A stretch of DNA of 38,147 nt from positions 104,265-142,411 of the forward strand of contig CAOKHZ010000008.1 of NCBI GenBank assembly GCA_948468385.1, given 5' to 3'. Under the pieces are notes generated by a model. That model was not told the DNA's origin, did no database searches, and saw nothing but the letters and a program-made list of their open reading frames with translations. The DNA comes from an uncultured Faecalicatena sp. GTDB lineage: Bacteria > Bacillota > Clostridia > Lachnospirales > Lachnospiraceae. Made by a program: the position numbers and the translations under genes. Positions 1,538 through 37,475 of the stretch are shown piece after piece. Each line of letters begins with the position of its first letter. The stretch's first letter is position 1.

Positions 1538-2779
1538 TTAATATAGCAGGTTCCCATTACACCAATGTAGCAAGTAATTGTTTAAAAACTTTCCAATCCA
1601 TTCGGTAATGTTACAGATATACACGTCTCCCAGTGGTTGAAATAAAAACGGATAAATCAATAGTAAAATGGAACCGGGATGTCGTTTGATTGCAGCTAGC
1701 GATTCTTGTGCCTGCTGTTCAATCAACGGATCCTTCATCGCCAAAAGAGACAGCAGAATAACAAAATAGTAGCATATGATGGAAAATATCCAGCGTCCCG
1801 AGTCCACTTTCAATAAAATATCCGGCAAAATCGTTCCGGCACCGGCGATTATAAAAAAGTATTTCCACTTTTCCAGCTTATCTTGTGCCTTGCCTAACAA
1901 TCCGCGGAAAAATTTTATGGCAATCACCAGGTACGGGAGCATTGCCACGATAAAAATCGGGTATTGTATGATGTTGAAAATACGCCATGTCATTTCCCTG
2001 TCCGTCAAGTCGATGCCAAGGATTTCATGGTCTATCACGTCTGCATGGTATTCACCGTTTTCACACAAGGCGGATGCCTTGGCCACGATGTCATCATAAA
2101 TGTTTGTTCCATTAAAGTGGCTAAACAGCTCGAACCATAAAAACAAAACGGAAGCAATCATAAAGCAGAATAAAAAAAGTCGAAAATATTTTTTACGTTC
2201 TTTTTCTTTCTGGCTTAATGCCTTGTAAAGGGTCAGTACAAGGATGATGTTTAAAAACATGAACACGTTTCCCTGGTGGACCATCACTCCCAATGCGGCG
2301 ATTGGCACCAACAGCCATTCAAAGCGTCCCGCTATCAGCAATGCCGCGCCGATCAAGCTTAGCATCACGCAATAGACGTCTAAACGGCCAAAATTAAATT
2401 GACAGCAGAACATGGGAACCGCGAACATTAAGAATAAGATTGCCAAATAGCGCATGCTTTCTGCTTGTTCCTTTCGGCACTTTTTCAGGCAAAAGACTAA
2501 AAAAGAAATTAGAATTACATAATAAACCAGCGTGATGGCAAGTGTAAAACGATACGTCCATGTATAATTCATCATGTCAAATGGTAAAATCCGATTCAGC
2601 GCGGCATATATGGTGCCAATCAATCCGCGAGAAATGAATCCGTATTTATATGAAAATGCCAACATCGTGGCGTTAATTTGATTCACCGTTCCATCAAAAA
2701 ATCTGACAAACAACACGAAGGTAAACAATATCAACACTAGCGAGAACCGTTTCGTAGAATTGCTATTTATTGTCCGCAT
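1538..2779 (-). CDS. Polytopic membrane protein of unknown family, copy 1 of 3
   Basis: I do not recognise this 413-residue protein as a named family. It has about ten hydrophobic segments. It shares with the proteins at 4428-5672 and 6971-8191 a set of fixed positions: SYKYGFISRG near residue 43, NFGRLD near 129, an H-Q/V-G near 168, a His near 221 (F-S-H or V-R-H), an E-I-L near 252, PYLVIAI near 282, AGTILPD near 314, KVDSGRWIF near 324 and DVYI near 385. Conserved Arg, Asp and His facing a membrane recall Wzy/EpsG-type polymerases or GT-C enzymes, but that comparison is inference. ATG at 2779 follows GAGGG at about 9 bases. It is probably transcribed with the CoA-transferase upstream (77-base gap). 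Confidence 0.8.
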   Translation of the reverse strand: MRTINSNSTKRFSLVLILFTFVLFVRFFDGTVNQINATMLAFSYKYGFISRGLIGTIYAALNRILPFDMMNYTWTYRFTLAITLVYYVILISFLVFCLKKCRKEQAESMRYLAILFLMFAVPMFCCQFNFGRLDVYCVMLSLIGAALLIAGRFEWLLVPIAALGVMVHQGNVFMFLNIILVLTLYKALSQKEKERKKYFRLFLFCFMIASVLFLWFELFSHFNGTNIYDDIVAKASALCENGEYHADVIDHEILGIDLTDREMTWRIFNIIQYPIFIVAMLPYLVIAIKFFRGLLGKAQDKLEKWKYFFIIAGAGTILPDILLKVDSGRWIFSIICYYFVILLSLLAMKDPLIEQQAQESLAAIKRHPGSILLLIYPFLFQPLGDVYICNITEWIGKFLNNYLLHWCNGNLLY

Positions 2780-4254: not shown

Positions 4255-4266
4255 CTCAAAGTATTT

Positions 4267-4393
4267 ATACGCAAGGGGCAAATATTTTTGCCCCTTGCGT
4301 ATACGAGGATGCACACAGCCGCATAAGGAAATATGCTGCTTCGCGGCTGCGGCTGGCGCAATACTCACGGCAGATAAAATCTGCCGTGAGTAT
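4267..4393 (+). repeat. Three-hairpin dispersed element, copy 1 (complete)
   Basis: Hairpin A is a perfect 16-bp stem with a TATT loop (4267-4282/4287-4302). Region B (about 4309-4360) folds by CAGCCG/CGGCTG with an inner GCTGC-TTC-GCGGC hairpin and a flanking TGCAC/GCGCA pairing. Hairpin C is a perfect 15-bp stem with an AAA loop (4361-4375/4379-4393), starting ATACTCACGG. It lies between the TATAAT at 4249 and the ATG at 4428. Hairpin A is not followed by a U-run. Function is unknown: it could be a structured leader RNA or a miniature mobile repeat. Confidence 0.85.
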
Positions 4394-4427
4394 ATTTAGA
4401 AAATGAATGTGTTTGAGAGGAATAGAC

Positions 4428-5672
4428 ATGTTGAAGGAGTTTGATAAAAGAAAAAAAAGAAACCTGCGGAGAGTGGTGCTTATTTTCGTTTTCGGTATCG
4501 TGCTTTCCGCGCGGTGTTGGGTTGGCATCGTTAACTGTCTAAATACGACGGTATATGCCTTTTCCTATAAGTATGGATTCATTTCCCGGGCGTTCATGGG
4601 GACGGTGCTGCGTGTTTTTAATCTTGTTTTGAACATCTTCGCTCCTTACGACCTGCTGACGTACGAGGGCATCGTATTTTTCTCGAAACTGCTAAATACG
4701 ATATTTATCGCCATGTTGATGGTATTGTTTTATATGTGCCTGAACGCGGTGGAAGAGAGGATGGAAGTCCCTATGTTGGCGGTGATGTTCGTATTTTCTA
4801 TTTTTGCTTTTCCCGAGTATTTGACGGAACAGAATTTTGGCAGAAGCGACATTTGCATGGCGATGGTGACGCTTCTTGGCTGTTATCTTTTGATAAAAGA
4901 AAAATGGGAATACCTTATCATTCCCTTGTCGGCCATTGCCGTTTGCATTCACCAGGGATATGTGCTGATGTTTTTTAACGTGCTATTGGTGATTTTGTGG
5001 TGTAAGATATTTGACAATGAGGGCGGCAAGAGAAAGAAATATATCACGATTTTCGGAGCCTCCTTTCTTGTGGCGAGCGTATTGTTTTTATATTTGAATT
5101 TTTTCAGCCATCAGAACGGAAAAGAAATTTATGACGAGATTTATAACATTGCAAGCTCTCTGGCGCATGACGGCGTAGTGCACACTAATTTGATCCTGCA
5201 CGAGATACTGGGAGAGAGCCCGTTTGTAAATGAATGGCCGGAGCACGTCCATAATTTTCAGGAGCTTCCGGTATTCCTCGTTCTGATGTCGCCGTATCTG
5301 GTCATTGCCTTCCGGTTCTTCCGAAATACGATTCGTGAGGCCAAGGGCGCGTACAAATTGAAATATTTGGCGGTTGCCGTCGGGGCGGCGACGATATTGC
5401 CGGATTTAATCGTAAAGATAGACTATGGGAGATGGATGTTTTCCATTATATTTTATTACTTTGTGACAATCTTGGTTTTATTGGCCAGAAGGGATCCGAT
5501 TATTGTCCGTAATTTTCAGATAGAGACAGATCGGATGAAGCAAAGGCCGGCGTTTTTCATGGCACTTTTGATTTATCCGGTTTTATTTACGCCACTTACA
5601 GACGTGTATATTTGTGAATTGACAAATAACATTACCAATTATTTGATTTGGCGACTCGGAGGGGGAGTTTGA
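4428..5672 (+). CDS. Polytopic membrane protein of unknown family, copy 2 of 3
   Basis: This 414-residue protein is a paralogue of 1538-2779 and the closer of the two. It shares SYKYGFISR near residue 46, NFGRSD, IHQGYVLMF, LFLYLNFFSHQNG, HEILGE, PYLVIAF, ATILPDLIVKIDYGRWMF and DVYICELT. About ten membrane segments alternate with short charged loops such as GGKRKKY. ATG at 4428 has AGAGGA 6-7 bases upstream and gives an N-terminus matching the other copies; the ATG at 4407 has no such site. Its mRNA leader is almost entirely the three-hairpin repeat. The 3' end overlaps the convergent acyltransferase gene by 41 bases. A role in surface polymer assembly is inferred from the neighbours only. 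Confidence 0.82.
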   Translation: MLKEFDKRKKRNLRRVVLIFVFGIVLSARCWVGIVNCLNTTVYAFSYKYGFISRAFMGTVLRVFNLVLNIFAPYDLLTYEGIVFFSKLLNTIFIAMLMVLFYMCLNAVEERMEVPMLAVMFVFSIFAFPEYLTEQNFGRSDICMAMVTLLGCYLLIKEKWEYLIIPLSAIAVCIHQGYVLMFFNVLLVILWCKIFDNEGGKRKKYITIFGASFLVASVLFLYLNFFSHQNGKEIYDEIYNIASSLAHDGVVHTNLILHEILGESPFVNEWPEHVHNFQELPVFLVLMSPYLVIAFRFFRNTIREAKGAYKLKYLAVAVGAATILPDLIVKIDYGRWMFSIIFYYFVTILVLLARRDPIIVRNFQIETDRMKQRPAFFMALLIYPVLFTPLTDVYICELTNNITNYLIWRLGGGV

Positions 5673-6970: not shown

Positions 6971-8191
6971 ATGGCAAAGGAAAAAAGAATCAGAAGGTTT
7001 TTAGTGATGTTGGCGGTTTTCGCGGCCGTTTCTGTCGTGTTTTTCTTTGAGTGGCGGATGAACGCGCAGAATACGACGGCATTGGCGATTTCCTATCAAT
7101 ATGGGATTGTGCCGAGGGGATTTGTCGGTACGATTCTCTACATGATAAAGGAATTTTTGGGCATCAGTTTCTATTCGTATAAACGGGCGTGTTATTTTTC
7201 AGCATTAGTGACGGCAGTTTATTTTGCCGTATTGTTTGTGTTTTTTAGGTTGTGCTTGAAAAGGACAAAAGAAGAGCACATGAGAATTGTTGAGACGATA
7301 CTCATATTTTTGTCGATCTTCATGTTTTCGGAATTTTTAACCTGGAACAATTTCGGCCGGCTGGACGAGTATTTGATGATTATCACCCTGCTCTGTCTAA
7401 TCTTGCTTGTGTGGGAAAAAGCGGAATTTTTAGTGATTTTGCTTTGTTGCATCGCAGGCTTGATTCATGTCGGATTTGTATTTACAAACGTGGGCGTGAT
7501 ATTGGTGGCGATTTTATGGAAGGCGTTTGAGCGGACGGGTTGGGAACGTAGAAAATATATTTTGCTGTTTCTTGGTTGTTTCTTGAGTGTCTCCGCATTG
7601 TTCCTTTACTTTGAAATCGTCCGGCATCCGCTTGGCATGACGGAATATGAAAGTATCGTGGAACTGGCAAAGAGCATATCGGAGGATGGAAATAGCATCA
7701 GCGATTCCTTGCTTGATTCGGAGATTTTGAGACTGGACGTGTTTGAGGACGAATGGGTGTGGCATACGAAGAATTATGTGGAAACGCCGGTGTTCCTCGT
7801 GTTTTGGAGCCCTTACTTGTTAATCGCGTTTCATTTTTTCAAAACGCTTATCCAGAGCGCAAAGACAAAATGCGAGAAGCTAAAATATGGGATGGTTCTT
7901 GTCGGGGCGGGCACCATTGTCCCGGAATTGATTTTAAAAGTCGATTATGGAAGATGGATGTTTTGCATCGTGGCGTATTATTGTTTGATTTTGTTAGTGC
8001 TGACCGTACTGGGCGATAGCATGGTGATTCAATGTCTCAGGGAGACGAAAGAGTGGGTGGCGAAAAAAGTTCCATTTTGGTGGGCACTGTTGATTTATCC
8101 GATCTTTTTCGTGCCGTTCCGTGACGTGTATATCAGTGACGTGACGACGAGAATCATGGATTTTATCGCCCCGATTTTGCATATTTGGTAG
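6971..8191 (+). CDS. Polytopic membrane protein of unknown family, copy 3 of 3
   Basis: At 406 residues this is the most divergent of the three paralogues. It keeps SYQYGIVPRGFVGT near residue 41, NFGRLDEY, PYLLIAFHFF, GAGTIVPELILKVDYGRW and RDVYISDVT. The His-Gln-Gly of the other copies is IHVGF here, and the internal HEILG is SEILR, so those positions tolerate change while the Arg of R-G, NFGR-x-D and K-x-D-x-GRW do not. ATG at 6971 follows GGGAGAGG. Unlike copy 2, its roughly 40-base leader lacks the three-hairpin repeat. A copy of that repeat lies instead downstream of its stop. Unknown function; a surface glycan role is inferred from context. Confidence 0.82.
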   Translation: MAKEKRIRRFLVMLAVFAAVSVVFFFEWRMNAQNTTALAISYQYGIVPRGFVGTILYMIKEFLGISFYSYKRACYFSALVTAVYFAVLFVFFRLCLKRTKEEHMRIVETILIFLSIFMFSEFLTWNNFGRLDEYLMIITLLCLILLVWEKAEFLVILLCCIAGLIHVGFVFTNVGVILVAILWKAFERTGWERRKYILLFLGCFLSVSALFLYFEIVRHPLGMTEYESIVELAKSISEDGNSISDSLLDSEILRLDVFEDEWVWHTKNYVETPVFLVFWSPYLLIAFHFFKTLIQSAKTKCEKLKYGMVLVGAGTIVPELILKVDYGRWMFCIVAYYCLILLVLTVLGDSMVIQCLRETKEWVAKKVPFWWALLIYPIFFVPFRDVYISDVTTRIMDFIAPILHIW

Positions 8192-8208: not shown

Positions 8209-8250
8209 CATGATACCAAGCGTCGGACAAATTTGATGCCTGGTATCATG
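8209..8250. repeat. 10-bp perfect inverted repeat downstream of copy 3
   Basis: CATGATACCA (8209-8218) and TGGTATCATG (8241-8250) are separated by 22 bases. There is no U-tract after either arm, so it is not a typical intrinsic terminator, although it follows the gene ending at 8191. It directly abuts the short palindromic repeat at 8251. Confidence 0.6.
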
Positions 8251-8278
8251 GCGCGGCCGCAGGCCGTGAATCGTAGTT
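8251..8278 (+). repeat. Short palindromic repeat, copy a
   Basis: The core GGCCGCAGGCCGTGAATCGT matches the cores at 22603 and 31580 (consensus GGCCGYAGGMCGTGAATMGT). CGGCC-GCA-GGCCG can form a small hairpin. It lies between the inverted repeat at 8209 and the three-hairpin element at 8279. Confidence 0.6.
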
Positions 8279-8403
8279 ATACTGAGGGGCAAAAAGATTT
8301 ACCCCTCAGTATATGAGGATGCGCACGGTCGCATAAGGGAATATGCCGCTTTGCGGCTACGACCGGCGCAATACTCACGGTAGATTTCATCGACCGTGAG
8401 TAT
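8279..8403 (+). repeat. Three-hairpin dispersed element, copy 2 (complete)
   Basis: Same orientation and layout as copy 1. Hairpin A (8279-8312) opens with an 11-bp stem ATACTGAGGGG/CCCCTCAGTAT and has one C-A mismatch further in. Region B uses CGGTCG/CGACCG and GCCGC-TTT-GCGGC. Hairpin C (8371-8403) has a 15-base stem with one mismatch and a TTC loop. Relative to copy 1, several base pairs are changed on both sides so that pairing holds. No plus-strand gene follows. Hairpin C instead runs into the 3' end of the minus-strand gene 8387-10051. Confidence 0.85.
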
Positions 8404-10051
8404 AATAATCCGATTTTCGTGTCCACTCACGGGTTCCAAGATCGTAAGAATAAAGAACGATATCGTCCGCACTGTTTCGTTCCATCCAATCGGTTGCTTT
8501 CGCGTCAATATTTTCATCCGCCATGTACAAATCCCAACCGTCGGGATACATTCCAGAATAGCCGTTCAGTGTTTTTAAATCATAGGTTTGTGCAATCGCC
8601 CAGGCATCCATTTGAAATTCTTCCCAACCATCGTTGGCGGTGGAAGCGTGTTTGTAATCCGTCAGGTAGAAGACTTCACAGTCATCGGGAGGCGCGGGGA
8701 CGGAAGATGTGAACGCGTTTTCCGATGCGGCGTTCCAGGTGGTGGTGACACCCACGGTGGAATGATTGCAGAGAAATACGGTTAGCGCGAGGGCGGGGAG
8801 GATACAACGGCGTCCGGCTTTGTATTTCCCAAGGCAGACATCGGCGAATGCGGAAAAGCAGATGGAGACGGGGAGCGTGATAAAGGTCAGCCAACGACCG
8901 ATACCGCGTATGGCCGATGCACCGGGGATGAATTTGAAAAAGAAATACCACAAGGAAAAGCCGTTGTCCCAGAGAATCACCAGGAAAAGGGAAACGATGC
9001 AGGAGACGGCCAGAGACAGACTCCATATTTCCTTATATCCATGTCTTTTGTTCTTGACGGCAAGACAGACATGGCACACCATTGTGAGGATGAACAGTGC
9101 CAAATAGAGCGGGGGAAATCCTGTCTTAAGATGATACACCGACAAGTCGAGGTTGAAAATGTTGTTGATGTCTTGTCCAATGAGATTGGGAAGCGTGGGG
9201 GAATACATGACGACATCACTCCAGCTTCGCCCGCCGACATTTTGAAAGTTGGGGAGGTAGAGGTATAAAAAGGGGAGCATGGCAACGACGCACAAGGCGA
9301 GGTAGAGCAGATATTCCGGCCAGTGCACGGACGCTTTGCGGATGGTTGAAAAAATATTTTTCGCCGGGATGCATAGGCAGGCAGATAGGCAGAACAGTGG
9401 CACGAAGAGGAACAAAAACACACAAGTGAAGTAAGCCACGTAGAACGCCGTATAAAAAAGCAGGACAAACAGCCCCAGTCCGGCCAGGGCAAAGAAAACC
9501 CGCCTTTTGTCATAAAAATATTTTGCATAACAAAAAGCGCAAATCAGGATGATTGGGAGCAGGCTTTCCGCAAACATCTGCGGGTTGGCAGTGATGGCGT
9601 AATATCCGTTGGAGAAGGAAAAACCCACGACGGCGGCCAGGGAAGCCCAATGGGAGCATTTCAGGCAACGGTTCATGAAGAACCAGAGCGCGATACTGCC
9701 CAGAAGGTGAACCAAGATTACAGAGTATTTAAACGCCATGTACATGTCGACTCCAAACAGCCGGAAGAGGCTGTAGGGCAGGGCGAACCCCAGCATGACG
9801 TCGGAATAGGACAAAACGTTTTGCGCGGGATAAAAAGCTCGAAGTTGCATCCAACTTTCGTTCCCGCAAAATACCTGAAACCAGTGTTCGACAAAAAAAG
9901 TGTTCAATCTGCCGTCAACGCGGCTGCCAATCAGGTGATCATTTAATAAAACATTATCAAAGAATATATAAGTTCCCGCCAAAATCAAAAGTATGGCGAA
10001 GAAAGACGTTAGGAATGGTAAGAGTCTTTTTTGATTTAGTTTGTTGCTCAT
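8387..10051 (-). CDS. Large polytopic membrane protein, probable GT-C-like glycosyltransferase
   Basis: This 554-residue protein has an N-terminal signal-anchor helix, then an extracytoplasmic loop with SRVDGRLNTFFVEHW, AFYPAQNVLSYSDVM and GFALPYSLFRLFG, then about eleven hydrophobic segments. A soluble C-terminal part of about 130 residues starts near 430. This resembles bacterial GT-C/YfhO-type transferases that use polyprenyl-phosphate sugars outside the membrane, but I cannot assign a named family with certainty. Its start overlaps the stop of the kinase/nucleotidyltransferase gene by four bases (ATGA), so the two are translationally coupled. Its last codons (ending YYTHGR) and stop lie in hairpin C of the dispersed element, suggesting the original C-terminus was replaced or extended. 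Confidence 0.72.
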   Translation of the reverse strand: MSNKLNQKRLLPFLTSFFAILLILAGTYIFFDNVLLNDHLIGSRVDGRLNTFFVEHWFQVFCGNESWMQLRAFYPAQNVLSYSDVMLGFALPYSLFRLFGVDMYMAFKYSVILVHLLGSIALWFFMNRCLKCSHWASLAAVVGFSFSNGYYAITANPQMFAESLLPIILICAFCYAKYFYDKRRVFFALAGLGLFVLLFYTAFYVAYFTCVFLFLFVPLFCLSACLCIPAKNIFSTIRKASVHWPEYLLYLALCVVAMLPFLYLYLPNFQNVGGRSWSDVVMYSPTLPNLIGQDINNIFNLDLSVYHLKTGFPPLYLALFILTMVCHVCLAVKNKRHGYKEIWSLSLAVSCIVSLFLVILWDNGFSLWYFFFKFIPGASAIRGIGRWLTFITLPVSICFSAFADVCLGKYKAGRRCILPALALTVFLCNHSTVGVTTTWNAASENAFTSSVPAPPDDCEVFYLTDYKHASTANDGWEEFQMDAWAIAQTYDLKTLNGYSGMYPDGWDLYMADENIDAKATDWMERNSADDIVLYSYDLGTREWTRKSDYYTHGR

Positions 10052-33156: not shown

Positions 33157-33174
33157 AAAGGAATCCTTTGTTAC

Positions 33175-33437
33175 GTGCATTACGCTTCGAATGGAAATTC
33201 CCAGACGTTACCCTGACAGCCAACTCAATCCAGGCACCCTCACAACACCCATGAGGTTCTGCTTAGTGCTGCTCCGTTCCCGACCTGACACGGTTCACAG
33301 ATTCACGTCGCGTGAGACCCAGATTTTCAACATCGCTTTTCAGGGGCGGCTCTGCAAATCGCCACCCTCCGCGTAATATCACCCCTGCTATAGCGGATTG
33401 CAGGTACAAGGTACCGCTAACACCCCGGCTGCACGAG
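33175..33437 (-). ncRNA. ffs: Signal recognition particle RNA, large bacterial type
   Basis: The minus strand carries the SRP RNA core GTGTCAGGTCGGGAACGGAG followed by CAGCAC and later GTGAGGGTGCCTGG, which form helix 8 with its GGAA tetraloop. At the 5' side, TAGCGGTACCTTGTACCTGC, then AATCCGCT, match the Alu domain of the Bacillus-type RNA. GTGCA near the 5' end pairs with TGCAC at the 3' end. A promoter (33443-33471) puts the start near 33437, and a terminator lies at 33132. The length of about 263 bases agrees with the approximately 270-base large form. Exact ends are estimated. It binds Ffh and targets membrane proteins to the translocon. Confidence 0.95.
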
Positions 33438-37373: not shown

Positions 37374-37455
37374 GGGATGCGCATAGCCGCATAAGGAAAT
37401 ATGACGCTCTGTGGTTGGTGCAATACTCTTGGCCGATGGAATCTGCCATGAGTAT
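37374..37455 (+). repeat. Three-hairpin dispersed element, copy 3 (hairpin A missing)
   Basis: Only region B (from GGATGCGCA at about 37375) and hairpin C remain. B keeps its pairing largely by G-U pairs (TAGCCGC with GTGGTTG). C (37423-37455) is still a 15-3-15 hairpin with two mismatches and a GGA loop. It ends 20 bases before the rpiB ATG, in the same orientation as copies 1 and 2. Confidence 0.75.
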
Positions 37456-37475
37456 AAGCAAGAGAGGAGAAGGAC

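Follow-up and report, generated by a model that had tools for sequence, protein, structure and literature searches.

Overall Structure of the Element

The three-hairpin element in the window, i.e., the 38,147-nucleotide stretch of an uncultured Faecalicatena sp. genome (G000) analyzed here, is very probably a non-autonomous mobile DNA repeat rather than an RNA gene. Its unit appears to be approximately 123 bp long, with palindromic terminal hairpins A and C arranged around a conserved core hairpin B. The three dispersed copies described in the earlier note, the third of them shortened, were confirmed at positions 4266–4394, 8278–8404, and 37376–37456, all on the forward strand.

Copy 1 (4266–4394, +) is full length; it was located by blastn and folding, and its ends are inferred from the empty sites of other copies. 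Hairpin A (4266–4303) is predicted to form a 17-bp stem with a 4-nucleotide loop. Core B (4310–4360), whose layout recurs across lineages, contains TGCACA (4310–4315), stem P1 (4316–4323/4348–4355), the one-sided bulge TAAGGAAATAT (4324–4334), stem P2 (4335–4339/4343–4347), and GCGC (4356–4359). Hairpin C (4361–4393) has a 15-3-15 arrangement. A putative target duplication, judged from the same empty sites, places a TA at each end (4266–4267 and 4393–4394), and the element ends, TACT.. and ..AGTA, are inverted. Copy 2 (8278–8404, +), also full length by blastn and folding, comprises hairpin A (8278–8313), the core (8320–8370), and hairpin C (8371–8403), while copy 3 (37376–37456, +) is devoid of hairpin A and retains a decayed core (37376–37422) and hairpin C (37423–37455). 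The folds of copies 1 and 2 have z-scores of −10.6 and −8.4, respectively, with none of 200 shuffles as good; that of copy 3 hardly exceeds chance expectation (z = −1.07, with 23 of 200 shuffles folding at least as well). The pair-preserving change of CAGCCG/CGGCTG in copy 1 to CGGTCG/CGACCG in copy 2 is indeed present. Hairpin C, which had been described as always 15-3-15, keeps this length in all copies but not full pairing, since one stem position is unpaired in copy 2 and two are unpaired in copy 3.

The ORFs flanking the three copies are divergent, convergent, and in the same direction. Three genes of 406–421 aa in the window (1538–2779, −; 4407–5672, +; 6971–8191, +) look related by eye and gave no Pfam match; copies 1 and 2 adjoin two of them. 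A second palindromic repeat (ATGATACC..GGTATCAT, then GGCGCGGCCGCAGGCCGTGAATC) at 8210–8272 abuts copy 2. A tail resembling that of this repeat also lies beside L018, and its exact 22-base tail was found in 3 of 402 loci, each of which is copy 2 itself.

Copy Number and Distribution

When the own genome was searched by blastn, 70 matches fell within E ≤ 10; the 50 with E ≤ 1e-3 collapse into 32 separate places, spread over 23 contigs, and 22 of these places are at least 70 bp long. The further copies that the earlier note had suggested looking for are thus found in the own genome as well as in many relatives. Within the genus, blastn detected the element in six of 12 genomes, own genome included. 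An exact 29-base pattern searched in named genome contigs returned 26 stretches, 25 from Lachnospiraceae bacterium and one from Eubacterium sp. Of 397 genomes searched within the family, 56 matched a covariance model built from 15 own-genome copies; they represent 54 of 334 genera and again include the own genome. Within the class, a core-only model matched eight of 391 genomes; G513 and G725 (family f24) and G499 (f42) are the three that lie outside the family. In a sample of the phylum it matched two of 398 genomes, both within the window's family. Because few candidates were scored in each genome, the genome counts from these wide searches are lower bounds. Of 15 chosen genomes in which more candidates were scored, 14 matched and G003 did not; core matches at E ≤ 0.01 numbered 47 in G006, 36 in G078, 53 in G184, 29 in G225, and 18 in G283. 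No match was obtained with four exact patterns in viral contigs, nor when copy 1 was compared with phages and plasmids by a blastn set for distant matches, both being weak tests for diverged forms.

Insertion Sites

Comparison of 15 pairs of sites, all from the window's genus and involving copies other than those of the window, revealed two clean empty sites and one near-clean site. L174 (G011) carries the full element at a position where L176 (G000) has just one TA, and L117 (G010) and L188 (G007) show the same relationship. The net gain at both sites is 125 bp, equal to the 123-bp unit plus one TA. In the near-clean pair, L013 (G000) versus L076 (G011), the right TA reads TC. A TA would thus have been duplicated on insertion at the two clean sites and, nearly, at the third. 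Insertion is the simplest reading of the empty sites, precise loss being the alternative. The other 12 pairs comprise three that are one-sided (L164, L166, and L018), eight in which other sequence replaces the site (L157, L168, L159, L160, L123, L126, L120, and L129), and one internal deletion, L122 (G010) versus L189 (G007), in which the middle was lost between short matching stretches and the outer parts were left. The small number of clean or near-clean sites among 15 pairs counts against the mobile-repeat reading.

Conserved Core and Covariation

Across lineages, the core consists of TGYRCA, a P1 stem of approximately 8–10 bp, a one-sided AGGAAAT bulge, P2, the closing arm of P1, and GYGC. 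This core is conserved, and hairpins A and C vary by lineage. Among 15 full copies of the own genome, 12 of 43 pairs changed on both sides, giving 28 cells versus 8.4 in shuffled controls, and none of 500 shuffles reached 28. For the cross-lineage comparison, two misread matches (L108 and L110) and one duplicate were removed from 40 matches, and of the remaining 37 cores, six that belong to the window's genus were set aside, so that 31 cores were aligned. Fifteen of 18 pairs changed on both sides in this alignment, with 101 cells versus 26.3 for shuffled and at most 27 for slid controls; because the structure was defined from the window's genus, the slid controls lean in its favor. P1 itself turns over yet remains paired in these 31 cores. 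The covariation that the earlier note had suspected therefore stands well above both kinds of control.

With regard to coding capacity, one frame of the minus strand runs open through 33 of the 46 copies of standard length, compared with about 12% of shuffles. A small ORF starting in AGGAAATATG was rejected as a candidate since its ATG is not kept across genera.

Orthologous and paralogous copies were also compared. Between the members of three orthologous pairs of standard length, 12 changes were counted: 11 affect one arm, one is of another kind, and none is compensated. Within-genome paralogue comparisons, 222 in number and not independent of one another, gave 465 compensated changes out of 1844 (25%), along with 1244 in one arm and 135 of other kinds. 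Compensation among paralogues and its absence from the orthologous pairs, of which there are three, suggest that selection acts on spread and not on resident copies. In the spreading lineage, pairing would accordingly be retained or else re-established through an exchange of arms.

The compensated changes may also have arisen mainly from the copying of palindrome arms, through template switching or arm inversion, with little structural selection. This account, which is compatible with a mobile repeat, is possible but on the whole doubtful. An exact 20-bp inversion within the center of hairpin A, which distinguishes the orthologues L116 and L147, is what arm copying would produce. The same applies to ten sites in G225 (L303–L312), behind T-rich tracts, where, by eye, the copies have different outer arms in hairpin A that mostly remain complementary. 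However, arm copying leaves unexplained why AGGAAAT, TGYRCA, and GYGC stay constant while P1 turns over, and why compensated changes are absent from the three orthologous pairs.

DNA or RNA

The earlier note had left open a structured RNA family and a structured mobile repeat. The mobile part of this proposal is upheld by dispersal, by presence and absence between sister species, and by TA duplication; the RNA-family part is not. At the gathering score, Rfam matched the window solely at the large bacterial SRP RNA (33173–33436, −). Among 17 loci searched at E 10, nothing near gathering fell on the element, only weak hairpin-like matches, the best being mir-5697 in L109 (31.5 bits against 50, E = 0.017). 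Membership in an Rfam RNA family was thus rejected, in agreement with the earlier note, which had recognized no such family.

A functional RNA is expected to tolerate G·T mismatches. In the genus, G·T and A·C mismatches numbered 58 and 75 (p = 0.17), without an excess of G·T, in the best 55 of 73 matches; copies of other length were dropped, and the core was counted in 49 copies and hairpin A in 43. By helix, the ratios were 15:22 for hairpin A, 4:13 for the basal stem, 7:8 for P1, 6:4 for P2, and 26:28 for hairpin C. The cross-lineage ratio was 12:13 when two basal-stem pairs were excluded; these two stood at 13:0 (the outermost) and 0:7. Nine tRNA genes used as a control gave 19:0, although the finder itself prefers G·U. 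G·T tolerance of the kind expected of a functional RNA was therefore not observed, but decayed copies push any ratio toward 1:1, which weakens the test, and the result mainly indicates that copies, once resident, are not maintained as RNA. Parity would be expected in decayed copies whatever their function, and the lean of the basal stem toward A·C also fits the mobile-repeat reading less well.

Consequently, a structured RNA family (a small RNA or a cis-regulator) that was spread by mobility and is still active as RNA, with the AGGAAAT bulge as a putative binding site, is considered improbable. The sequence and structure of the core persist from genus to genus as the ends change, which such a family would also display, and in some genera a copy lies just downstream of a T-box (L106) or an FMN riboswitch (L111) found by the Rfam search. 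The basal-stem ratio and the 0:7 pair would correspond to an RNA read from the minus strand, while the outermost pair points in the opposite direction. Against it stand the lack of an overall G·T excess on either strand, the one-arm decay in the three orthologous pairs, the varied gene context, and the absence of any Rfam family near gathering.

Gene Context and Terminator-Linked Forms

In a crude ORF test, five of 15 own-genome copies overlap an ORF of at least 100 codons, and the rest lie in mixed contexts. In two species, the reading frame of a glycosyl hydrolase 3 gene (L012:541–3117, −, in G000; L163:3–1724, −, in G011) runs through one copy, which sits between the Fn3-like and GH3 N-terminal domains.

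A different habit was observed in G184, in which 18 of the 20 copies fetched do not have their own hairpin A. By eye, the hairpin that precedes these copies differs from one to the next and carries a T-rich tract, which is weak in L271; at its end the core begins as TATGCRCA. A stricter, scripted terminator test at the core start was positive for 13 of 20 copies in G184 and five of seven in G283, versus 1.3% and 0.9% of control positions, respectively. None was positive in G078 (0/20), G225 (0/10), G393 (0/2), or G725 (0/1); the test examined the stretch directly before the core, where most copies of these four genomes carry hairpin A. The core and hairpin C also occur in tandem in G184, as judged by eye. 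No clean empty site of the terminator-linked form was found in the genus of G184, relatives being too distant.

In the window's genus, a 5′-side terminator preference was rejected, as one of 55 copies passed the test versus 3.2% of control positions. By eye, L013 lies behind a T-run, which the test overlooked because the loop is long. On the 3′ side, a terminator-like site on the other strand was found in seven of 55 copies versus 3.2% of controls. At one orthologous terminator, which we take to be a lysine riboswitch before dapA, the T-run is followed immediately by one subfamily in G184 and by another in G787 (by eye); the element is missing there from G788, and G786 and G789 are ambiguous by eye. 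Terminator adjacency in G184 and G283 and the two subfamilies behind one terminator would suit a cis-acting terminator companion, an insulator or 3′-end stabilizer copied because it is useful there, but this proposal is very improbable given the window's genus, the element-free terminator of G788 (beside the ambiguous G786 and G789), and the fact that the element would be absent from terminated transcripts.

Comparison with Known Systems

The element shares the general features of MITEs: it is short, dispersed, present in many copies, and lacks a gene of its own. Ordinary MITEs have conserved ends and a variable middle. The conserved middle and variable ends of the present element are the reverse, which counts against the mobile-repeat reading, as a functional RNA core would give the same pattern.

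RUP inserts at TA targets, and a TA flank is also known for Correia elements and ERIC. In the RAYT system of REP sequences, the enzymes recognize single-stranded DNA. Group IIC introns insert behind terminator stem-loops, whereas the hallmark of Rickettsia palindromic elements is in-frame insertion into coding genes. BOX elements are built of modules in an order that differs from that of the present element.

REP sequences and the element are both hairpins in many copies, and single-stranded DNA recognition, a RAYT feature, can only be inferred for the element. Any resemblance to group IIC introns would be confined to the terminator-side position in G184 and G283 and does not extend to the window's genus; moreover, the element measures 80–130 bp, and no group II intron family appeared among the Rfam matches of 17 loci. 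The copy in frame in the glycosyl hydrolase gene of two species recalls Rickettsia palindromic elements, which, compared by description, differ in host and layout, with a third of the own copies overlapping an ORF in the crude test.

RUP is 107 bp long and has many copies, inverted-repeat ends, target duplication, and a predicted secondary structure (PMC3049150), and in these last four respects the two are alike. The element differs from RUP in its two separate terminal hairpins, conserved asymmetric core, and occurrence in many genera, and no IS630-type transposase was found in its own genome. Correia elements and ERIC are small non-autonomous repeats (PMC10969869); the element is likened to them in these two properties and, by description, set apart by its three-hairpin layout and conserved middle. 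BOX elements consist of modular hairpin units, one of which forms a composite structure with T boxes (PMC3049150), and modularity of hairpins is, by that description, common to both. No published description of the present repeat was found among the titles and abstract openings listed from the open-access literature. Another short hairpin repeat, GCAGAAAGCCTGCC..GGCAGGCTTTCTGC, was noticed in more than 30 places in G007 (e.g., L198–L217).

Search for a Mobilizing Enzyme

The own genome, at 94% completeness, yielded no match to Y1 (IS200/RAYT) or DDE_3 (IS630-type) transposases, and this argues against the mobile-repeat reading. Y1 matches were obtained in 20 of 30 chosen genomes; the element-bearing genomes without one are G000, G078, G163, G320, and G374. 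DDE_3 was matched in eight of 30, six over the cut-off, with matches in G007, G010, G078, G062, and G163 and none in G000, G006, G011, G184, G225, and G283. Y1 and DDE_3 were therefore rejected as required mobilizers, being unmatched in the own genome and several other element-bearing ones, and an IS630/RUP-type MITE was likewise rejected because DDE_3 is unmatched in six element-bearing genomes.

RAYT-like Y1 fragments in G225, G393, G513, G725, and G004 had REP_Tyr_transpos as their best NCBIfam model, at 50.7–62.4 bits against a cut-off of 80. The RAYT-like Y1 frames of these five genomes (L379–L390) are about 165–293 aa long. No core was found beside Y1 genes in 20 loci examined of 60, with flanks of up to 2 kb. 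Unlike REP/RAYT systems, then, the element shows no core beside RAYT-like Y1 genes and is present in G000 and G078 without a Y1 match; membership in this group was rejected, as no Y1 gene flanked by the repeats was found. No autonomous element sharing the terminal inverted repeats was seen in the loci read.

Proposed Mechanism and Implications

The mobile repeat is envisaged to be moved by a protein supplied in trans that would recognize the folded DNA of both core and hairpins, either single-stranded or extruded. If the protein recognizes folded DNA, hairpins would stay paired in the spreading lineage and decay freely once inserted. The same core is combined with different terminal hairpins in other genera; in at least two genera, where most copies have no 5′ hairpin of their own, it adjoins an intrinsic-terminator hairpin of the host that varies from site to site. 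It is conceivable, and put forward tentatively, that the core marks an undescribed folded-DNA mobility system of this bacterial class. Such a system would require a hairpin on the 5′ side, either the element's own (TA-targeted forms) or one borrowed from the host by insertion at the 3′ end of an intrinsic terminator, and its enzyme would be neither IS200/RAYT nor IS630. The best reading of the data as a whole is a widespread structured mobile-repeat family with a conserved core, exchangeable ends, and a terminator habit in some genera, working like a MITE or REP.

For the Lachnospiraceae, which dominate among gut bacteria, no small repeats of this kind were found described in the literature searched. 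For RNA-discovery pipelines, the element is a warning that mobile DNA can yield strong covariation. A repeat with a conserved folded core, exchangeable hairpins, and a position behind terminators in some genera would allow the recognition of structured DNA by a mobility enzyme to be tested, and it would account for many unannotated intergenic hairpins.
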